The notes below the pieces were generated by a model. The model was given only the letters and a program-made list of their open reading frames with translations, had not been told where the DNA came from and did no database searches. From an uncultured Bacilli bacterium (GTDB lineage: Bacteria; Bacillota_I; Bacilli_A; RF39; UBA660), in NCBI GenBank assembly GCA_944358235.1, contig CALVQL010000006.1:1-33827 (forward strand): DNA of 33,827 bases, given 5' to 3'. The stretch's first letter is position 1. Each line of letters opens with the position of its first letter. Shown here piece by piece: positions 13,177 through 33,827 of the stretch. Position numbers and translations under genes: made by a program.

Positions 13177-14499
13177 CTATTCACAATCTTTAGTAGCTGG
13201 TCCTTTTAAAAGTTTTCCGTCTTTTGAGAATCGTGAACTATGACAAGGACATTCGTAGATATCTTCAATAGGATTATAAATGAGTTTACACCCCATATGT
13301 GGGCATGTTTTAGGACTTAATTTAGATATATGAAAATAACTTTTTAATTGTGAAAAAATATTACGAGGTAAACACTTTAACAAGTTAATATTTAGACGTT
13401 TCGGATCGAAAAGACGGCGATAGGTATTTTCCCGATCGAGAAGCATATCACTAATAATTTTAGCAGCTAGTACGCTATTCGTCATTCCCCACGTATTATA
13501 TCCAGTAGCAATAAACATGTTTGGTTTTATCTTGCCAATAAAGGGCAGATAATCAAACGTTATAAGATCGACATTACTATAGCAATCGATAATACTAGAT
13601 TCTTCTAAATCAAAAGTGTCAGTTACTTTAGAACTGTTTTTCTTATCATCAAAAGAAAATGCGAGATTATGCGATTTTCCTAAAGAAATTTTAAAATTCT
13701 TATAATACCGCGAAGACATAATGGGCATTCCAGCACTGATATAATTAATTTTAGAAATATTATCACTTTCGCTAACTATGATGTGTGATTTTTCAAGATA
13801 TGAACGGATTGGCAATATATACCCGAGCACAAAGAATGGATAATGACATGCTAAAACTATCTTATTAGAAGTTATTTTATATCCATTTACATGGGCTATG
13901 TAATGATCGTTATCCCGTTCGATTTTAGTAATCGGAGAATTTTCATAAATTGGAATATTCTTCATCTTTAAAATATCATATAATTCATTTAAGTATTTTA
14001 TAGGATTAAAAACGAATGATTCTTCGAGGCCGTAACAAACTCCTATCTCAGTTCTTATATTTTGAATATCACATCCTAATTGCTTTAAAAGTTTCACTTC
14101 TCTATTTAACTTAAAAATATCATTATTTTTAGTAGCAAATACATAGGCTGTACTTCTTTCAAAATCACAAGATATTTTTTCGCTTTCGATAATTTTTCGT
14201 AAAAATGTTATTGCTTCTTTTTGGGAATGAAAATAATTAGTTGCAACTAAAGAATTATATTTATCCATTATTTTACTATAAATAATGTCTTGAAAAACTG
14301 TAACTTTAGCAGTCGTATTGCGAGTGATGCCCATACCATATTGACGTGCTTCTACAAGGCAAATGTCGGCTTTATCGGAAAGAAAATAAGCAGTATTCAT
14401 TCCCGTCATACCAGCTCCAATAATGAGGACATCACAAGTAATATTTTTACTAACCTTAATCACTTCATGTTCTCGATATGATTTATCCCAAATGCTCAT
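13177..14499 (-). CDS. FAD-dependent oxidoreductase with C-terminal Rieske [2Fe-2S] domain
   Basis: About 440 residues. The N-terminal Rossmann dinucleotide motif is DVLIIGAGMTGMNTAYFL, and FAD is completed by the late motif GYNTWGMTNSVLAAKIISD, as in DadA/glycine-oxidase-like (DAO) enzymes. The C-terminus is a Rieske domain with CPHMGC and CPCH, the four 2Fe-2S ligands, but it stops soon after (ends ATKDCE). The start at 14499 is preferred over 14547 because GGTGATTTT precedes it. DAO-Rieske fusions are known in Firmicutes and cyanobacteria but their substrates are mostly unknown. It follows the metal operon after a terminator, so it need not be coregulated with it. Confidence 0.9.
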   Translation of the reverse strand: MSIWDKSYREHEVIKVSKNITCDVLIIGAGMTGMNTAYFLSDKADICLVEARQYGMGITRNTTAKVTVFQDIIYSKIMDKYNSLVATNYFHSQKEAITFLRKIIESEKISCDFERSTAYVFATKNNDIFKLNREVKLLKQLGCDIQNIRTEIGVCYGLEESFVFNPIKYLNELYDILKMKNIPIYENSPITKIERDNDHYIAHVNGYKITSNKIVLACHYPFFVLGYILPIRSYLEKSHIIVSESDNISKINYISAGMPIMSSRYYKNFKISLGKSHNLAFSFDDKKNSSKVTDTFDLEESSIIDCYSNVDLITFDYLPFIGKIKPNMFIATGYNTWGMTNSVLAAKIISDMLLDRENTYRRLFDPKRLNINLLKCLPRNIFSQLKSYFHISKLSPKTCPHMGCKLIYNPIEDIYECPCHSSRFSKDGKLLKGPATKDCE

Positions 14500-14547
14500 A
14501 AAATCACCAATATTAGTATGTGACAAATAACAAATCTTAAACTTCAC

Positions 14548-14569
14548 AAAAAAAAGAGCCGAAGCTCTT
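14548..14569 (-). terminator. Strong terminator after the nitroreductase gene
   Basis: AAGAGC-TTCG-GCTCTT on the minus strand, a stem closed by a stable UUCG-type tetraloop and followed by eight U residues. It marks the end of the metal-efflux operon. Confidence 0.9.
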
Positions 14570-15098
14570 AGATAAATTTGACGATCTCTTCCATAGGTAG
14601 CCGTCTAGGCATTTCGGGGATAGTTTCTGGCACCCCTAGAGCAACGATGACGACGATTTTTTCATCATCAGGAATTTTTAAAGAAACTCGTATTTTTTCT
14701 TCATCAAACAAACCCATAATTAAAGTTCCTAACCCCATGTCAGAAGCCCGTAAACAGAGATTTTCGACTTGAAGACCGTTATCAAAATATTGATATCCAT
14801 CTTTCAAAAACGTAGCGTAATTGCCATCATGATCGAAGCCACTTATTCCGTTTTTTACAGTTGATACGATATAAGCTTGCGCATTAAGCGTGTTCTTCTG
14901 ATTAAAATCCGGCAAATTATCATATACCAGATGTAATTGCTCGCCTCGTACCACATAATATCGGGAAACTTGAGTATTTTTCCAAGATGGAGCTTTTCTT
15001 GCAGCATCAATCAATTCTTTAATTGCTTCAATAGAGATCGTATCGTTACGATATTTACGAATACTGCGACGTGATTCAATACATTCTTTAACTTCCAT
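14568..15098 (-). CDS. Nitroreductase-family protein
   Basis: A 176-residue FMN-dependent reductase of the nitroreductase superfamily: ESRRSIRKY at the N-terminus (FMN phosphate binding), APSWKNTQ, then the FMN-side GLQVENLCLRASDMGLGTLIMG and a final IVALGVPE. Members are usually homodimers reducing nitroaromatics, quinones or similar with NAD(P)H. The start at 15098 is chosen because GAGGAATGAT precedes it; a longer frame would run inside the copper ATPase gene. It lies 23 bases after that ATPase and before a strong terminator, so it is probably the last gene of the metal operon. Nitroreductases next to CopA are seen in other Firmicutes (for example copper-induced CinD in Lactococcus), which fits a role in metal-induced oxidative stress. 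Confidence 0.9.
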   Translation of the reverse strand: MEVKECIESRRSIRKYRNDTISIEAIKELIDAARKAPSWKNTQVSRYYVVRGEQLHLVYDNLPDFNQKNTLNAQAYIVSTVKNGISGFDHDGNYATFLKDGYQYFDNGLQVENLCLRASDMGLGTLIMGLFDEEKIRVSLKIPDDEKIVVIVALGVPETIPEMPRRLPMEEIVKFI

Positions 15099-15121
15099 AT
15101 CATTCCTCGATTCTATAATTA

Positions 15122-17311
15122 TTATACCATTTTTTTTAAACGAAGAGAATTTAGGACAACCGTTAGACTGGAAAAAGTCATGGCAAGACTGCCAATCATC
15201 GGGGACATCGTAAGGCCCCACTTACTGAATAAGCCCATAGCGATGGGAATCATGATGATATTATAAAAGAATGCCCAAAAGAGATTTTCTTTAATTATCC
15301 GATTATATTTACGACTGATATGAATGAGTTTTCCAATGTTGTTTATGTCATTATTCATGAGGATGACATCGGCGGAGTCAATAGCAATATCAGTTCCGTC
15401 ACTGATGCTTATTCCAATATCTGCTTGGACTAATGCTAAAGCATCATTGATACCATCACCAACCATAATAACCTCTTTCCCTTTATTATGAAGCTCCCTT
15501 ATATAATCTTGTTTTTTCTCAGGAGTAACAGAAGCTATAACGGTATCAATTCCCAAGGATGAAGCAATAATTTTGGCAGTTATTTCATTATCTCCTGTCA
15601 ACATAATTAATGTAATTCCTTGTTCTTTCATCGATGAAATAAACGCTTGCGCTTCATGGCGAATTATATCTTTTACGCCGATTAGACCGATAAGTTGATT
15701 TTCTTCGACGATGAAAATAATACTACATCCTTCTTTTTGAAGATATTGATAATCTTCAATATTATATTTATCGATTTTTAATGATTCCAATATTTTAATA
15801 TTTCCTAAATAATATGTCTTATCTTGAATTTGTCCAGAAATACCAGCTCCAACGATGTTTTTAAAATTTTCAACCCTCATAGTATAATCAATCCTAAAGG
15901 CTGAACTGATCGGATGATTCGACAGAGCTTCGATGTTAGCAACAATATTAATCAATTCTTTATCACTATATGTTCCATAATTGTATACTTTAAAAATATT
16001 AGGTTTTCCATAAGTAACAGTTCCAGTCTTGTCGAAGACAATTGTGTCGATATTTCGTGCTTCTTCTAAGACGATACTATCACGAATAAATAAGCCATGA
16101 TTAGCACAAATACCAGTTCCGACGACTGATACTAATGGTACTGCAAGTCCAAGTGCACAAGGACAAGCGACAACTAAAACGGTTATAGCATGAATCAAAG
16201 CTGTCTCAAGCGTCGAACTTAGGATAAACCATATGATGAAAGTAATAGCGGATATTAAAATTATAATTGGAACAAATATTCCGCTGATGCGATCGGCTAG
16301 ACGTTCAATATTCGTCTTCGAATTAGTAGCTTCGACGATTAATTTAACAATATTAGATATAGTCGAGTCCTTACCTATTTTTGTCGCACGATACTCGATG
16401 TATCCATCATAACAATAAGCACCAGCAATTACTTTAGCACCAGTTTCTTTCAAGATCGGCTTACTTTCACCAGTAATAAAACTTTCATCGATATAACTTT
16501 TTCCACTGACGACTTCTCCATCAACGGCGATTTTCATTCCCGTACGACATAAAAGAATATCACCGACATTTACCTCATCAATTGTCACTATCTTTTCACC
16601 TTCACTCGTCTTTACCGAGGCTTTTTGCGGAGTTATTTCAACCAACTTTTTCAAAGCTTCTTTCGTCTTATCTTTACTGACATTTTCAAGCGTTCTTCCA
16701 AGTTTTATAAAGTAAATAATCATACATGTCGATTCAAAATAGAGATTCATCATATGCGAAGGATTATTCATAATAATATTAATATATCCAAATAAACTAT
16801 AACCAAAACTAACTAAGACACTAAGCATTACCAACGTATCCATATTAGGTATACGATGAATTAAATTTTTTATACCATTTTTTATGATATCAAATCCATA
16901 GATAATAAAAGCAATTGCTGATATTAATAATACTGTAGCTAAGATGATGGGATTGTTATGATTAATCATAGGTATATCAGGTAGACCTACCATATGATTC
17001 ATCATTATATACATGATAAACAAGACCCATATACCCAAAATAATTAGCAAGTTTCTATCTTTTTTATATTGCTTTTTAGTATCAATTTCCTTAAATTCTC
17101 CTAAGCTTACAAATCCAGCTTCAGATATATATCGCTCAATAGCATCACAGCTAATGCCATCGTAGGTAACGGTTGCAATCGATAAGACGAGATTGACATT
17201 AGCAGCAATTATACCTGGTTGACGTTGCAAATATTTTTCAAGTCCTGAGGAACAAGCACTACAAGTCATACCATCTATCTTTAGAATTATTTTTTTCAAG
17301 CAATTATTCAC
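15122..17311 (-). CDS. copA: Copper-exporting P1B-1 type ATPase
   Basis: A 729-residue heavy-metal P-type ATPase. One N-terminal HMA domain carries MTCSAC, eight membrane segments follow, and the ion channel motif is CPCALGLAVPL. The phosphorylation site is DKTGTVTYGK, the nucleotide domain has the HP dipeptide (LSNHPISS), and the hinge is GDGINDALAL. MTCSAC plus CPC and a conserved N-Y-less C-terminal M(S)S pattern (GSLAMTFSSLTVVLNSLRL) are characteristic of Cu+ exporters. The start is GTG at 17311, overlapping the preceding gene by four bases; a TTG four codons later, better placed behind AGAGGTG, is an alternative. It pumps Cu+ (or Ag+) out of the cytoplasm. It is encoded in the same operon as a Zn/Cd ATPase under a CadC-like repressor. 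Confidence 0.93.
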   Translation of the reverse strand: MNNCLKKIILKIDGMTCSACSSGLEKYLQRQPGIIAANVNLVLSIATVTYDGISCDAIERYISEAGFVSLGEFKEIDTKKQYKKDRNLLIILGIWVLFIMYIMMNHMVGLPDIPMINHNNPIILATVLLISAIAFIIYGFDIIKNGIKNLIHRIPNMDTLVMLSVLVSFGYSLFGYINIIMNNPSHMMNLYFESTCMIIYFIKLGRTLENVSKDKTKEALKKLVEITPQKASVKTSEGEKIVTIDEVNVGDILLCRTGMKIAVDGEVVSGKSYIDESFITGESKPILKETGAKVIAGAYCYDGYIEYRATKIGKDSTISNIVKLIVEATNSKTNIERLADRISGIFVPIIILISAITFIIWFILSSTLETALIHAITVLVVACPCALGLAVPLVSVVGTGICANHGLFIRDSIVLEEARNIDTIVFDKTGTVTYGKPNIFKVYNYGTYSDKELINIVANIEALSNHPISSAFRIDYTMRVENFKNIVGAGISGQIQDKTYYLGNIKILESLKIDKYNIEDYQYLQKEGCSIIFIVEENQLIGLIGVKDIIRHEAQAFISSMKEQGITLIMLTGDNEITAKIIASSLGIDTVIASVTPEKKQDYIRELHNKGKEVIMVGDGINDALALVQADIGISISDGTDIAIDSADVILMNNDINNIGKLIHISRKYNRIIKENLFWAFFYNIIMIPIAMGLFSKWGLTMSPMIGSLAMTFSSLTVVLNSLRLKKMV

Positions 17312-19170
17312 CTCTTTTCACTTTTAAAACGCAATATTCGCAAGGCGTTTAAAACCGCTAAAACGGTTACTCCGACATCGGCAAATACAGCACTCCACAT
17401 ATTGGCAATTCCAATAGCACTGAGAATTAAAATACCTACCTTGACAGTTATAGCAAAGGTGATATTTTCTTTGACTATACGCATCGTCTTTTTGGCAATA
17501 GTAATTGCCGTTGCAATTTTAGAAAGTTCATCTGTCATTATTACGATATCAGCAGCTTCGATAGCGGCATCACTACCTATACCACCCATCGCAATACCAA
17601 CATCAGCTAACGCTAGAACTGGAGCATCATTTATTCCGTCACCTACAAACAATAATTTTCTCGGGGACGATTTTTTCTTTAAAATACTTTCGACAATATT
17701 AACTTTATCTTGTGGTAACAATTCAGAATAGCATTCGTCAATAGATAATTTTGAAGCAATAGATTCACTGATATTTTGGCGATCACCAGTCAACATGATA
17801 ATTTTTTGGATACCCTTTTTTCGCAATAATGTTAAGGTTTTATAAGTATCTTCTTTGACTTTATCAGCAATAACAATGGAACCAGAGTATTTCTTGTCAA
17901 TAGCAATGTATATAATTGTTCCGACATTATTATTTGGAGTAAATTTTATCTTAAAACCGTTCATCAATTTTTCGTTACCGACCAAGACGTCATGACCATC
18001 GATGATTGCTTCGATACCTTTACCGGCTATTTCATACGTCTTCGTTATCAATGATTCATCTATTTCCTGATTATAAGCTTCTTTTAAAGATAACGATATT
18101 GGATGTAAAGAGTAATATTCAGCATAGACGGCATATTTAAGTAGCTCGTTATCAGGAATTGCTACAGGCTCGATTTTTTGTACTTTAAATACTCCTTCTG
18201 TAAGCGTTCCTGTCTTATCACAAGCGAGTATTTCTGAGGAAGACAATGCTTCGAGATAGTTACTCCCTTTAATAAGTATTCCAGCTCGAGATGAAGCACC
18301 TATTCCCCCAAAGAAAGATAACGGTACAGATATCACGAGAGCACATGGACAGGACACAACTAAAAATGATAAAGCACGATAGACCCATTCTCCATGAGTT
18401 GCATTAGGAATTATCAGTGGCGGAAAAATCGCTAGCAGTAACGCAACTATAACGACAATAGGAGTATAATAACGTGCAAATTTAGTGATAAATTGCTCGG
18501 ATTTAGATTTTTTATCACTAGCATTTTCGACTAGTTCGAGTATTTTACTGACAGTAGATTCTTCAAAGCGTTTATTTACTTCGATTTTTAATATACCATC
18601 AATTGCTATCGTCCCACTTAAAACTGCATCACCAATATTTGCTTGTTGGGGTATAGCTTCTCCCGTTAATGCTAAGGCGTTGATAGAAGATGTCCCTTCG
18701 ATAATGATTCCATCTAAAGGAATTTTTTCCCCTGGTTTTACGAGAATAATTTCACCAATTTTCACTTCTTCTGGCGATACTTTATCGATGTTACCATTGC
18801 GATAAACATTAGCAAAATCCGGACGAATATCCATTAAGTTAGCGATAGATTTTCGTGACTCTTCGACAGCATAACTTTGAAATAATTCACCAACCTGATA
18901 GAAAAGCATAACCGCTACAGCTTCCGGTATTTCATCAATCAGAAATGCTCCAATAGTTGCAACACTCATTAAGAAGTTTTCATCTAATATTTTACCTCTA
19001 ATAATATTGCGAAAAGCTTTGATTATAACATCGTAGCCGATAATTATATAAGATATGCTAAAGATGATATCGTTATATATTGTCCTATCGAGTTTTAATA
19101 AAAAGCCTAACAATAGTAAAATACTTGCCATTATTATTCGAAATAGAATGTATTTGTGTTTAGATTTCAT
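17308..19170 (-). CDS. Zn/Cd/Pb-type P1B-2 heavy-metal ATPase lacking its own HMA domain
   Basis: A 620-residue P1B ATPase with CPCALVISVPLSFFGG in the transport helix, DKTGTLTEG, the nucleotide-site HP (YSLHPIS), MLTGDR and GDGINDAPVLALADVGIAMG. The CPCALVIS-P-L form and the ending DVGVTVLAVLNALR are those of CadA/ZntA. Membrane pairs lie at about residues 9-48 and 69-95, then near 230-290 and the C-terminus. It has no N-terminal metal-binding domain; the next upstream gene is a stand-alone HMA protein, so CadA appears split in two. The start follows GGAGGTG, an excellent RBS lying over the HMA gene's stop. Exports divalent Zn, Cd or Pb. Confidence 0.92.
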   Translation of the reverse strand: MKSKHKYILFRIIMASILLLLGFLLKLDRTIYNDIIFSISYIIIGYDVIIKAFRNIIRGKILDENFLMSVATIGAFLIDEIPEAVAVMLFYQVGELFQSYAVEESRKSIANLMDIRPDFANVYRNGNIDKVSPEEVKIGEIILVKPGEKIPLDGIIIEGTSSINALALTGEAIPQQANIGDAVLSGTIAIDGILKIEVNKRFEESTVSKILELVENASDKKSKSEQFITKFARYYTPIVVIVALLLAIFPPLIIPNATHGEWVYRALSFLVVSCPCALVISVPLSFFGGIGASSRAGILIKGSNYLEALSSSEILACDKTGTLTEGVFKVQKIEPVAIPDNELLKYAVYAEYYSLHPISLSLKEAYNQEIDESLITKTYEIAGKGIEAIIDGHDVLVGNEKLMNGFKIKFTPNNNVGTIIYIAIDKKYSGSIVIADKVKEDTYKTLTLLRKKGIQKIIMLTGDRQNISESIASKLSIDECYSELLPQDKVNIVESILKKKSSPRKLLFVGDGINDAPVLALADVGIAMGGIGSDAAIEAADIVIMTDELSKIATAITIAKKTMRIVKENITFAITVKVGILILSAIGIANMWSAVFADVGVTVLAVLNALRILRFKSEKR

Positions 19171-25971: not shown

Positions 25972-27921
25972 TCAAAACTCAACGTACCTTTCTGTATCGT
26001 ACAAAACTCCGTCAATTTCAATATAGATAGAATAACGTCCTTTTAATCCTTCATCATTAATGTATTTAGTTACTACAATACCGTTTTCATTCTCCTCTTC
26101 GGTAAAGATATCGACACATAAAGCTGTATATGGTTTTTTACTGATTTTAACATTGTAATAACGAGATATCATATTTTGATATAAGACGATATTAACCGTG
26201 TTTTCACGTTTGAATTGTCCTTTGACGACTAGACGATCAATTTCTTTAGTTATTTCAATATTATGGCTTTCATATACCTCATCAATAGCGTGTTTAGATA
26301 GTATTGGCAAAAATTTATAGTTATCAACTCGCGTATTTCCTAAAGAACCCAATCTTTTAGCATCAGTTATAACAAACTCTTGATCATCTATATAAAGATC
26401 CATTTTTTCGACGCGATAATTATTGGTTGGTAATTTTATTTCAAAGATTATCTCATCATCTAATAGTTCGACAGTATCGGATAATAACTCTGCTCCTTCA
26501 CTAAACCCAGCTGGCTGATTAGAATTTTCGCCATCGACAAATACTATTCCTCCAGAATGAACAATATAATGATCTATAGCAAGATAATCGACATCGGAAA
26601 TATATGGTGAATAAAATTCACTTCCACGTTCTTTACCATATTCCCAGACTTGTTCGATTGTCATCTTTTCAGTATCAATTTTGTACATGACACCGCGAGT
26701 GTAACTTTCATTTGCCGGGACATATTCATCTTTAATCTTAGATTTATTATTTCCATTGTCTAGAATAAAGACATATCCTTCAGGGGTAATCATTGCAGCA
26801 TGTTGACTCCATTGCCATTCAAAATCATCACCAATTGGCGTAAAGAAATACTCTTGATATTCCTCACTCCAATTCGTGGGATCCCCTATTATCCAATTTA
26901 ACTTTCCAGTTTCATAATCGATATTGATTACAGCATCTTGATGACGTCCTGATAAAGTAATCGATTTTGTTTTTTCATCATACCAGACAGAATTATTATG
27001 AAACCAGTCATAAGCAGTCCAATTTTCACTCTTTCCGTCTTCCATATTTAAAATTTCTTTTAAATCAAAGGCTTTGACAATTTCGCCAGTATTACGATCG
27101 AGTTCGACGATATAATCCTCAACTGTTCCGGCCTCACTGTCAAAATCATCACTTGCTACTAATAAATTACCATCTTCCATCTCGTAATAGTCGTGATGAT
27201 ATCCGCCTTCAAGACTGAATTCAGTATAAATCTTACCCAATAAATCCATTTCATATAATCCAGTCATATAGTAAGGCGAATTTATTAGACGTTCTGTACT
27301 TACTAGAAGATGGCCATTTTTTAAACGATCTATTTTCCATAAGGCATAATTAGTAAAATACCAACGAATATCACCATTGACATCATATGCACAAGTATAA
27401 CCCGAACTAGATGGTGTAAAGAAATATAGTTCATTATCGAGTTCTGTTTTGTCGGCATAAACAGATTCCGGGATAGCAATATCATCTGGTAATTCTTCTG
27501 TTTCTATTTCAATAGTTTTAGTTTCATCGTCAATTTCTACGATGACTTCATTTGTCGTTCCGGCATATAGTCCATATACTGGTAAATAATGTTCTTTAGA
27601 TTCAGCAAACGTATTCGTAAATGTTGTATGCTCATCTTTTCCTTCAATGGTAATTTTAACAGAAACGTTATCTTCTGTTTCAAACATTATTAGTGCTGTT
27701 AATGGGGAATTACCATAGGGATTAACGATGACGTTAGGTTCATCGATAGTATAACCTTCAGCTATAAACTCAGCTTCCAATTCTTTTTGCGATTCAATCA
27801 TACTTTCGGTTATTGCAACACTTTCGTCATTAGTCGCTCTAATGTTTAAAAAAATGAACACAATTGCTATTGTGACGATGAGTATTGCTATTATTATCAA
27901 AATCAAATTTTTCTTTTTCAT
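25972..27921 (-). CDS. Aryl-sulfate sulfotransferase (ASST family)
   Basis: 649 residues with an N-terminal membrane anchor or signal (6-26), an N-terminal beta domain (about 60-145) and a six-bladed-propeller-like catalytic region. ASST enzymes move sulfate from a phenolic sulfate ester to another phenol without PAPS, via a sulfo-histidine. Candidate catalytic residues: H242/H243 (GGYHHDYYEM), H308 (WFHNNS), R326 (SGRHQDAV) and H374 (WSQHAAM); H308 to R326 is 18 residues, the same spacing as H356-R374 in the E. coli enzyme as I remember it. Only two Cys are outside the anchor (C177, C602). RBS AAGGAGTG precedes the ATG. Downstream thioredoxin-fold gene starts one base after the stop. Confidence 0.9.
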   Translation of the reverse strand: MKKKNLILIIIAILIVTIAIVFIFLNIRATNDESVAITESMIESQKELEAEFIAEGYTIDEPNVIVNPYGNSPLTALIMFETEDNVSVKITIEGKDEHTTFTNTFAESKEHYLPVYGLYAGTTNEVIVEIDDETKTIEIETEELPDDIAIPESVYADKTELDNELYFFTPSSSGYTCAYDVNGDIRWYFTNYALWKIDRLKNGHLLVSTERLINSPYYMTGLYEMDLLGKIYTEFSLEGGYHHDYYEMEDGNLLVASDDFDSEAGTVEDYIVELDRNTGEIVKAFDLKEILNMEDGKSENWTAYDWFHNNSVWYDEKTKSITLSGRHQDAVINIDYETGKLNWIIGDPTNWSEEYQEYFFTPIGDDFEWQWSQHAAMITPEGYVFILDNGNNKSKIKDEYVPANESYTRGVMYKIDTEKMTIEQVWEYGKERGSEFYSPYISDVDYLAIDHYIVHSGGIVFVDGENSNQPAGFSEGAELLSDTVELLDDEIIFEIKLPTNNYRVEKMDLYIDDQEFVITDAKRLGSLGNTRVDNYKFLPILSKHAIDEVYESHNIEITKEIDRLVVKGQFKRENTVNIVLYQNMISRYYNVKISKKPYTALCVDIFTEEENENGIVVTKYINDEGLKGRYSIYIEIDGVLYDTERYVEF

Positions 27922-28796: not shown

Positions 28797-29759
28797 TTAT
28801 TCATTTATCAATCGTTTTCCTTTGTTTTTACTTAATTCATGATATTTTTTTATGCGCGTTTCATGAAAAATTTCTCCAATAGTCTCCGTGTTATTAGCTA
28901 TCTTGCATAAATCAGAAGGTTTATTACGAGTAAATCCCATGAGATGTAATCTATCTAAGAACTCGATTAACTTTTCATACATACCCTCACAATTATATAA
29001 GATAATTTCACCGGAATATTCTTTATTCCCTTTCTTTTCTAGTGCACTAAAAAACTCGTTAATCGTTCCAATTCCACCAGGTAAAATTAGCACGACATCT
29101 GATGATTCAACCATATAATCAGTTCTTTCGCTGATGCGATCGACAGTTATTTCTCTATCACAATCTAATTCGGAAAAGTCGTCTTTGTAAATCTCGGGAA
29201 CAACACCGGTAATATAGCATCCTTTTTCCGTCGCAATATCGTAACTAATTTTCATAATACCATGATTCATTGCTCCAAATATCAAATTATCATTATCATT
29301 AAGAATTTGTGATAATAGATTATGGCATTCAATATATAAATTGGATTCTAATTCATCGGATGAAGATGATGCAACAAAAGTATCTAAACCGACAGATGGA
29401 TTTTGACGATCTAAAAGTTCTCCAACGACGTCATCACACATCATCGATTGCAAAATGGGAAGAGGTAAATATCCCCTAAGTTTTTTTATCAAATCATTTA
29501 AAGTTATATCACTTGCCTTATAAAAGTATATCGTTCCATCAACTTCGTATTTATGAAAATAATTTTTATAATTTACCAAAAACGATTGTAAATGTCCGCG
29601 TGATAAAATTAGATGCGCATCAAAATTCTTCTTACGTAAATCCGCGATGACGTCTCGACCATATTCTTCGGCCTGATGAAGCGAAATAAAGTCGTTCCCA
29701 CCATGAGACATCTGCTCAATTATAGCGTTGCTAACAAGATCTTCAATGTAAATATTCAA
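28797..29759 (-). CDS. LOG-family protein with an extra N-terminal domain
   Basis: 320 residues. The second half is a LOG (lysine decarboxylase-like) Rossmann fold: a first turn TFVASSSSDELESN (about 127-140), NLIFGAMNHGIM, GVVPEIY and the diagnostic LPGGIGTINEFFSAL (226-240). LOG enzymes cleave nucleoside 5'-monophosphate glycosidic bonds (cytokinin or related). The usual R-K before the motif is R-T here, and the G-G-G loop is degenerate. About 120 residues precede the LOG part, where family members have almost none; no match recognised. The start is TTG at 29759 behind GAGGTG. It follows the MerR gene by 38 bases. Confidence 0.85.
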   Translation of the reverse strand: MNIYIEDLVSNAIIEQMSHGGNDFISLHQAEEYGRDVIADLRKKNFDAHLILSRGHLQSFLVNYKNYFHKYEVDGTIYFYKASDITLNDLIKKLRGYLPLPILQSMMCDDVVGELLDRQNPSVGLDTFVASSSSDELESNLYIECHNLLSQILNDNDNLIFGAMNHGIMKISYDIATEKGCYITGVVPEIYKDDFSELDCDREITVDRISERTDYMVESSDVVLILPGGIGTINEFFSALEKKGNKEYSGEIILYNCEGMYEKLIEFLDRLHLMGFTRNKPSDLCKIANNTETIGEIFHETRIKKYHELSKNKGKRLINE

Positions 29760-31332: not shown

Positions 31333-31357
31333 AAAAAGAGTCTACAGACTCTTTTTT
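31332..31357. terminator. Bidirectional terminator
   Basis: AAAAAAGAGTC / GACTCTTTTTT around TACA, a perfect 11-bp stem between convergent genes, with A and T runs on both sides. Confidence 0.9.
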
Positions 31358-32846
31358 ATAACTTCTTTTTCTTCACCGTTTCAAACACTTCTGGTATATC
31401 CAAAAATTCAACTATACTTGATAGATTAAAAGAGCCTAAACGCTCACAAAGATTAACTAGACGTTCATCATATAATATTTCACTATCACGTTTTAAAAGG
31501 GCATTTGCCAGATAGCTACCTACTTGATATTGAAAACCATCGATAAGCTCAATCCCCTCTTCTAAAAACAATTCAGTATTAGCATCGATAGATTCATCAA
31601 AAGCGCTTTCGTAATCGATATCATTTATAAGAATTTCTAATTCATCAGTTGGTATATTGTTATCTTTAAACAATTTAAGCAATTCCAAATGCACTTTATG
31701 CGTCAATTGATAATATTTTATCCAAGGTGCAATCTTTTCTTCACGAGTAATTTCCCCGTTATTTTTATATGTTATTAAGTCTTTTAAAATCTCGACATTT
31801 GCTCGAAATATATCAAAATTATTTTGTTCACGACGATTAACAATATAGTTGATGATGTCTTCACCGAATCCTTGACGAACAAGATATTTAGCAGCCACTC
31901 TTTCAAAATAAATCGGCAAAAACTCTAATAAGGACCACGAAATATCCGAACTATAGTAATCAGCAATAAAATGGAAAAATTCATGGACAAAATTGAGAAA
32001 AATACGAACTGATCCATCGTGCGTTACTTTAATAATCCCTAATCCGTTTTCTTCACGAATATATCGATTATCTGCCGTCCTTTCACTGTAGTTTTCTACT
32101 TTGACGAATACTAATCTATTCTCTCTTTTCATTCGATAGTATAAATTTTTCCATTCTTTTGGAGCATCGATTACACTTAGGAAGTCAAAAAACTTATCTT
32201 CAAATTCATCGATACTACATTTCGCCAACTTAACTTCATTTATAACATCATTGATATAATATAAATTACTTTGCGATGATATTTCCTCTTTTAACATCTT
32301 TGAAAAAAACAAATCAATATTATCAAAAAATGATGAATCATACTCACTCAACATATATAGCATCGTATCTAATAACCAATTATATGTAGGGTATCGTTCT
32401 TTATCTCGAAGCCATGAGAAAACTTTTTCTTTTTCCTCGTCATTAAAGTTGAATATAAAATCTTTGATTTTGTCAATATCACCGGCAAAATATGAACACG
32501 ATACAATAAACCAGATAGTTTCAGCAAGAAACTGTGGATTATCCATCGGGAAAAACGGTTTTATTTCCTTTAAACAAACAATCAAATCAATATATTCTGC
32601 CATCAAAGTATTTGTTTCTCCTAACAAGGAATTAAAATCATCATTATTCAATATGGCTTTAATTATATTGATTAGAAACGAATCAAAGTCATCTATATTT
32701 ATCACGTATTCTTGTTGCGATTCTGAATCTATATAATCGAGGAATAAAAACCGAAATGAGTCAAGGACATTTTCAACTTTTGTAATCTCATCTTTTGAAG
32801 AATTTTCATGAGTTATCTTTAAATTACCACGTACTATCATTTCCAT
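31356..32846 (-). CDS. Large protein with HEFFH zinc-metallopeptidase motif
   Basis: 496 residues, acidic, no signal or membrane anchor. FLNFVHEFFHFIADYY (H288, E289, H292) fits the HExxH zinc site of gluzincin-like peptidases; downstream E308 or E315 (LLEFLPIYFE) could be the third ligand. The N-terminal 230 residues are helical and unrecognised, and the C-terminal 150 also helical. No known peptidase family recognised; whether it cuts protein is inferred from the motif only. RBS AAAGGAG overlaps the end of the kinase gene, one base upstream, so the two are coupled. Confidence 0.8.
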   Translation of the reverse strand: MEMIVRGNLKITHENSSKDEITKVENVLDSFRFLFLDYIDSESQQEYVINIDDFDSFLINIIKAILNNDDFNSLLGETNTLMAEYIDLIVCLKEIKPFFPMDNPQFLAETIWFIVSCSYFAGDIDKIKDFIFNFNDEEKEKVFSWLRDKERYPTYNWLLDTMLYMLSEYDSSFFDNIDLFFSKMLKEEISSQSNLYYINDVINEVKLAKCSIDEFEDKFFDFLSVIDAPKEWKNLYYRMKRENRLVFVKVENYSERTADNRYIREENGLGIIKVTHDGSVRIFLNFVHEFFHFIADYYSSDISWSLLEFLPIYFERVAAKYLVRQGFGEDIINYIVNRREQNNFDIFRANVEILKDLITYKNNGEITREEKIAPWIKYYQLTHKVHLELLKLFKDNNIPTDELEILINDIDYESAFDESIDANTELFLEEGIELIDGFQYQVGSYLANALLKRDSEILYDERLVNLCERLGSFNLSSIVEFLDIPEVFETVKKKKL

Positions 32847-32847
32847 A

Positions 32848-33723
32848 TTAAACTCCTTTAATACTCTTCAACTCATCAATAGCTTTTTTAGATAATATTT
32901 TTTTATCACAATCGAGATCCTTTATTACTTCACTTAAATATGGTTTTTCGGAAGCATCGGAGAAGATATATGAAAAACCTTCTCTAACAGATTTACTAGT
33001 ATCCATAAGCTCGACCATTCTTCTTAAAAATTTGCTAGATAAATTGATTTTGAACAAACGTTCTTTAGATGCTAAAATTTCTACTGCTAACATTGCATAA
33101 AGAAAAATATCATTATCTTTTGGATCAACAGTATCATCATCATATATACTCTCCAAATAATGAGCACGATGAGGATCGGCATCAAATCCGAAATTTCCAA
33201 ACATATAGTTATCAGTATCACAGAATTTTACTTGATTATCATTATCTATTAAAATATTTTCACCCTTTAAATCACCTATTATAGCTCCTGCTTGATGAAT
33301 TCGTTTGATAGCAGCATCTCCTTGTAAGATAAAATTTAACATAAATGAATTTTCATAAAATTGACTCATAAAATAAAGTTTTTCAAAATCTTTAAAATAA
33401 CGATTTCTTTCGACTTTTTCCATATAATAGGCTTTAGGAATTGAATCACTATCCTCTTCACCTGGAGAAGAAAAATCAACTAAACCTAACGGGAAACAAA
33501 AAGATTCGTCATGAAACTTCATTAGTTCTTTTATTTTAGCTAATTTCTGTTCAACACGCTCTAAATTGGCATACGTAAATACTTTTATGGCATAATCAGA
33601 ATCATATTCGTAGACATCGCCCTCATGTCCACCACCTAAACATTGATGTACATAACTATGACATAAGAGTATTTCATCGACGTGTAGTGTCGGTATTTCC
33701 GAAAACTCTTTTTTCTTTTCCAT
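32848..33723 (-). CDS. Atypical protein kinase
   Basis: 291 residues from the ATG at 33723 (a GTG one codon earlier is less likely; GAGGGG is 8 bases before the ATG). Kinase motifs: glycine-rich GGGHEGDVYEY (30-40), K47 in YAIKVF, catalytic loop GAIIGDLKGENILI with D151, K153 and N156, and metal site D169 in CDTDNY replacing DFG. HRD is changed to I-G-D. A helical C-lobe follows (DNDIFLYAMLAVEIL), but the C-terminal part is short. It has no membrane segment. It is cotranscribed with the HEFFH-motif protein. Confidence 0.85.
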   Translation of the reverse strand: MEKKKEFSEIPTLHVDEILLCHSYVHQCLGGGHEGDVYEYDSDYAIKVFTYANLERVEQKLAKIKELMKFHDESFCFPLGLVDFSSPGEEDSDSIPKAYYMEKVERNRYFKDFEKLYFMSQFYENSFMLNFILQGDAAIKRIHQAGAIIGDLKGENILIDNDNQVKFCDTDNYMFGNFGFDADPHRAHYLESIYDDDTVDPKDNDIFLYAMLAVEILASKERLFKINLSSKFLRRMVELMDTSKSVREGFSYIFSDASEKPYLSEVIKDLDCDKKILSKKAIDELKSIKGV

Positions 33724-33749
33724 CACACATTCCCCTCAATCGATTGGTT

Positions 33750-33778
33750 ATTATAGCATAAATAGCAAAAAACACCAA
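33750..33778 (-). promoter_or_regulatory. Promoter of the kinase-metallopeptidase pair
   Basis: TTGGTG (33773-33778), 17 bases, TATAAT (33750-33755) on the minus strand, 26 bases before the ATG. Confidence 0.6.
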
Positions 33779-33789
33779 ATATTCCATAT

Positions 33790-33816
33790 AAAAAGCAGAT
33801 TATCGTAATACTGCTT
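33790..33816 (-). terminator. Terminator of a gene beyond the right edge
   Basis: AAAGCAG / CTGCTTT closes a 12-base loop region that can pair further (ATTA/TAAT); a T-run follows on the minus strand. It implies another minus-strand gene just off the right end. Confidence 0.55.
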
Positions 33817-33827
33817 TATCTATTTTA

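Follow-up and report, generated by a model that had tools for sequence, protein, structure and literature searches.

A probable stand-alone kinase and a probable divergent PepF-like zinc peptidase, most likely neighbours by chance in an uncultured gut-type Bacilli bacterium

The described proteins that come closest to the gene pair reported here are two kinds of kinase and one kind of peptidase. Eukaryotic-like Ser/Thr kinases (Pfam Pkinase, PF00069) carry a Gly-rich loop, a conserved lysine, catalytic Asp and Asn residues, a Mg-binding Asp and the motifs HRD and DFG. PD-T4-6 proteins, as represented in PADLOC, are small stand-alone kinases that act as single-gene defence systems. Oligoendopeptidase F (PepF, about 600 aa) and Pz peptidase are M3B enzymes (MEROPS M3, clan MA(E)); PepF trims or clears short cytosolic peptides, and that of Bacillus subtilis degrades a lasso-peptide precursor (PMC11218540).

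We analysed a window of 33,827 nucleotides (i.e., the whole stretch of DNA under study, which is one entire contig) from an uncultured gut-type Bacilli bacterium. Two neighbouring genes in this window, here called K and M, had been described in an earlier note as a possible two-gene system consisting of an atypical kinase and a protein with an HExxH zinc site. The explanation that we hold with reasonable confidence is that K is a small, cytosolic, stand-alone kinase and M a divergent, likewise cytosolic zinc oligopeptidase of the M3B/PepF type, and that the two are co-transcribed, with coupled translation, in this genome and do not form a conserved system.

Both open reading frames were found where the earlier note had placed them. 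K spans positions 32848 to 33723 of the minus strand and encodes 291 amino acids from its ATG (a GTG lies one codon 5' of it, at 33726), and M spans positions 31356 to 32846 of the same strand and encodes 496 amino acids. The minus-strand junction reads ...ATTAAAGGAGTTTAA-T-ATG, meaning that a single base separates the K stop codon (TAA) from the M start, and the Shine-Dalgarno sequence of M (AAAGGAG; 32853–32859, minus strand) lies inside the 3' end of K. A Shine-Dalgarno sequence within the last codons of the preceding gene is a typical arrangement for translational coupling, and together with the TAA-T-ATG junction it suggests that translation of M is coupled to that of K.

Upstream of K we read a putative extended −10 element, TGCTATAAT, in which TATAAT (33750–33755, minus strand) is preceded by TGC, and, with a spacer of 17, a weak −35 element (TTGGTG; 33773–33778, minus strand). 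Further upstream lies a terminator-like hairpin (AAAGCAG...CTGCTTTTT; 33790–33817, minus strand; predicted fold of −8.7 kcal/mol), which we assigned to an unseen gene upstream of K; about 100 bp lie between the start of K and the end of the contig. A second, bidirectional terminator-like hairpin (31333–31356; −11.6 and −12.0 kcal/mol) is located between M and a convergent DUF362 gene. The boundaries that the earlier note gives for the two genes are thus confirmed as a reading of the sequence: the hairpins are supported by their predicted folds and the extended −10 can be read in the letters, but a consensus promoter and terminator scan of the window reported neither the K promoter nor any of the terminators. 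The promoters that the scanner did report occurred at the chance rate only, and it probably missed the hairpin at 31333–31356 because the T-run was counted as stem. We therefore treat all of these elements as candidates, read from the sequence and its predicted folds.

A junction as tight as this one is what would be expected of proteins that work together, and it counts against our preferred explanation. If K and M are co-transcribed and translationally coupled, their expression would be matched, so that direct control of M by K would be possible. Specifically, K might phosphorylate M or the substrate of M and thereby turn the peptidase on or off, the two genes being a recently assembled regulatory unit. 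Such a switch would fit the one-base junction, the Shine-Dalgarno sequence within K, the common promoter-like and terminator-like boundaries and the catalytic residues that both proteins keep; the comparative evidence set out further below nonetheless makes it unlikely in our view.

K matched Pkinase with an E-value of 5.2e-7, its score of 29.8 bits falling slightly short of the gathering cut-off (31.7 bits). Matches to the same model at E <= 0.1 were found in nine of ten K-family members (best 4.1e-8), and the K family profile, when searched against PDB, found kinases with a best E-value of 1.2e-5. An AlphaFold model of K computed without an alignment was uninformative (pLDDT 35), so the fold assignment rests on sequence profiles, which indicate that K is probably a kinase-fold protein, namely a protein kinase. 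Like eukaryotic-like Ser/Thr kinases, K has a Gly-rich loop, a VAIK-type lysine (K47), a catalytic loop (149-IGDLKGENI-157) with catalytic D151 and N156, and a Mg-binding D169 (in DTD-N, 169–172). Unlike them, it has the His of HRD replaced (I/L/V-GD across the family), D-x-D-N (D-T/V/L-D-N) in place of DFG, and a distinctive C-terminal IFSDAxxKPY (KPY at 260–262); its 291 residues contain little besides the kinase domain.

These replacements were present in all ten K homologues, with canonical HRD and DFG absent throughout, and are therefore family traits rather than signs of decay. Moreover, none of the ten homologues deviates at D151, N156, D169, D171, N172 or the C-terminal KPY, and the nine whose sequence extends to K47 all have this lysine. 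The altered motifs pointed out in the earlier note (IGD within IGDLKGEN, 149–156, and DTD, 169–171) are thus real, but since the catalytic Lys, Asp and Asn (K47, D151 and N156) are kept along with D169, "altered" does not mean inactive, and K is probably an active enzyme. The K family is a lineage-restricted group of stand-alone kinases with I-G-D and D-x-D-N motifs.

Another way to read K is as an anti-phage kinase that works alone in the manner of PD-T4-6, M being either a passenger or an effector. K resembles these proteins in being a small stand-alone kinase with weak profile similarity to them: eight of ten K-family members matched a PD-T4-6 model (best 2.4e-9), the mad6 and MkoA kinase models also gave matches, and the distribution of K is patchy. 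However, for K of the window Pkinase outscored PD-T4-6, and the best-model match covered residues 124–169 only, i.e., the catalytic-loop region that is common to all kinases. The neighbouring genes look ordinary both here and in relatives, where no defence context was found, M-family members gave no consistent defence match, and no relatives were detected in the phages, plasmids or viral contigs scanned. Considering this, we regard a PD-T4-6-like role as very unlikely.

For M, direct identification with Pfam, NCBIfam and PADLOC was tried and returned chance-level matches only. Single-protein scans found no relatives of M in genome contigs, viral contigs, plasmids or phages, and a single-protein scan of 98 genomes found three weak ones. 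Within the same bacterial family, a seed profile detected the M family in 67 of 386 genomes, spread over 45 of 150 genera, and some genomes carried several paralogues. In an alignment of 29 members, H288, H292, E308, E315, R339 and Y440 are invariant, D421 is nearly so, and E289 is present in 28; the exception (locus L063), in which HG replaces the HE of the zinc motif, is N-terminally truncated and probably a decaying copy. The HExxH site (HEFFH, residues 288–292; codons at 31971–31985, minus strand) is thus not the only recognisable feature of M, as had been claimed, given that E308, E315, D421 and Y440 are also conserved.

Several loci of the M family were also noted. Tandem M-family genes, three in a row at one locus (L080) and two at another (L088), represent a lineage expansion. 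A truncated homologue at L129 (4928–5662), with HG for HE (VHGFIHY), is probably a decaying copy. Another contig of the window genome (C10) carries two HExxH-containing ORFs (L125, 3747–4811 and 5449–6555) of 355 and 369 aa, with the motifs HEFAH and HEYAH and an HExxH...E..P....E-like layout as in M; the second has a weak M-profile score, and the two appear to be divergent M paralogues.

The spacing of the conserved residues in M recalls the M3 signature, and we therefore tested for a relationship with M3 peptidases. In PDB, the M family profile matched oligoendopeptidase F best (2qr4; E 0.06), with the HExxH...E zinc sites aligned. When the M family was compared with 14 PepF proteins of the same class using hhalign, the match reached a probability of 94% with an E-value of 1.4e-7 over M residues 209–490; E308 and E315 aligned with the PepF segment AEVAST..NE, and Y440 with the segment YQYATG. 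M32 and M48 were rejected as identities (3.3% and 0.2%, respectively), with the kinase-alignment control at 0.15%. An AlphaFold2 model of M (pLDDT 83.5) gave eight Foldseek matches in PDB at a probability of 1.00, all of the M3/PepF type (oligoendopeptidase F, Pz peptidase A and a putative Chlamydophila peptidase). TM-scores to PepF structures were 0.30–0.43 and the rmsd was about 20 A, so that the domain orientation or the N-terminal half of M may differ from PepF.

M thus shares with M3B oligoendopeptidase F and Pz peptidase the HExxH followed by E-x6-E (E308, E315), a C-terminal Y-x-Y motif, an alignable catalytic half and a common Foldseek fold family. It differs from PepF in having only about 13% identity to it, in length (mostly 403–517 aa in the M family, compared with about 600 aa in PepF), in its zinc motif (HE(F/L)xH versus HExGH) and in having no conserved His before Y440 (residues 421–440) in the 29 members. 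Some PepF proteins have such a residue in PHFYY, so that the activity of M could be altered, although a simple pattern found this His in 6 of the 14 PepF proteins and it may not be universal. Given also that Pfam M3 (PF01432) was not among the families listed for the 29 members at E 1, and given the modest TM-scores, we refer to M as M3-like rather than as an M3 member. By homology from hhalign and by the fold of its model, M is a probable divergent M3B/PepF-like zinc peptidase. The profile and Foldseek searches proposed in the earlier note recovered a Pkinase profile for K and PepF-type profile and fold matches for M, and the statement that neither protein belongs to a named family was too strong in the case of M. 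A canonical M3 peptidase (612-aa frame, on contig C35) is also encoded in the window genome, meaning that M is an addition and not a replacement.

The lack of a Pfam or NCBIfam peptidase match, the lack of a conserved His near Y440 and the HG of L063 could also mean that M is a zincin-like scaffold that is catalytically dead or no peptidase at all. We consider this highly improbable, as H288, H292, E308, E315 and Y440 are kept in 29 of 29 members and E289 is missing only from the truncated, probably decaying one. Under our preferred explanation, M would be a helical clamshell in which zinc is held by H288, H292 and E308 and water is activated by E289, with Y440 at the position of the conserved C-terminal tyrosine of PepF; its role, like that of PepF, would be to trim or remove short peptides in the cytosol, and K, as a small cytosolic kinase, would phosphorylate some protein.

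To determine whether K and M form a conserved pair, we compared their distributions among 386 genomes of the bacterial family, using E < 1e-60 as the threshold for K-orthologues and a sample of 386 drawn in the same way for M. K-orthologues were present in 12 genomes and the M family in 67, and the two sets overlapped in the window genome only. Outside it, 1.9 co-occurrences were expected by chance and none was seen (p 0.22), meaning that there is no association between K and M in either direction. No M adjoined any of the 11 other K-orthologues and no K adjoined any of about 40 M homologues (some loci stop at contig ends), and the neighbours differed among the loci examined. These loci included eight named MAG loci from uncultured Bacilli, one of them labelled Erysipelotrichaceae. 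A broad M profile run directly on the 11 other K-orthologue genomes found no M orthologue; three of them contained distant M paralogues, mostly of 220–380 aa, all on contigs other than that of K. Two genomes (G290 and G366) contain distant members of both superfamilies, which lie over 50 kb from each other or on separate contigs. In a class-wide sample, drawn evenly and with the home-family share unstated, both families were found only in home-family genomes.

No fusion of K and M was found among longer ORFs: kinase ORFs of 463–475 aa (L119, L120) and M-like ORFs of 566–578 aa (L121, L122) had no partner domain, and a frame of 823 aa with a kinase hit (L118) had no profile match at the threshold used. 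In the former (L119, 2218–3642; L120, 2256–3644), from two genomes of one genus, the kinase domain occupies the C-terminal part of the protein, and a homologous ORF of about 115 aa adjoins each. Elsewhere, six K-superfamily kinase matches form a single array of about 7 kb (genome G234, contig C1, 8202–15547).

Outside the window genome, homologues of K and M were thus found only apart, the outcome that the earlier note had itself named as refuting its two-gene system: the pair occurs in one of 12 K-orthologue genomes and one of 67 M-family genomes. What stands of that proposal is a probable kinase and a probable zinc peptidase in what would be one operon here. With no second genome carrying the pair among the 386 or at the eight named MAG loci, and with the two superfamilies lying tens of kb from each other or on separate contigs where they share a genome, regulation of M by K has no comparative support and is, by our estimate, doubtful. 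The boldest reading would be that the operon arose recently and that the atypical stand-alone kinase exerts direct control over the PepF-like peptidase, the two forming a kinase-gated cytosolic peptidase module. This is a long shot at the very bottom of our estimates; we met no precedent for it, and literature searches on kinase and HExxH defence operons returned nothing that combined all terms. The neighbouring of K and M is most likely a chance pairing of two patchy, lineage-restricted solo families, which would be co-transcribed in one genome, and there is probably nothing unusual about the pair itself.

The novelty lies in the M family, which is a divergent form of an enzyme kind already known, and not in the pairing, which is no new system. 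Two findings are worth keeping: a large, divergent M3-like peptidase family that is unseen by Pfam and NCBIfam in one family of small-genome, uncultured Bacilli, and the K family, a group of stand-alone kinases restricted to this lineage whose motifs read I-G-D and D-x-D-N. Through them, "hypothetical proteins" of these Bacilli would become testable enzymes.

Other genes of the window were noted in passing. Two P-type ATPases stand side by side (13177–19170), the larger (729 aa) bearing a heavy-metal-associated domain and the other being 620 aa long; they adjoin an FAD oxidoreductase whose C-terminal part is a Rieske domain. An arylsulfotransferase (ASST, Pfam 2.4e-99; 25972–27921) is present in this small-genome member of the Bacilli, and a LOG/"lysine decarboxylase" protein of the SLOG family (28797–29759) has a first stretch of about 140 residues with no Pfam match.
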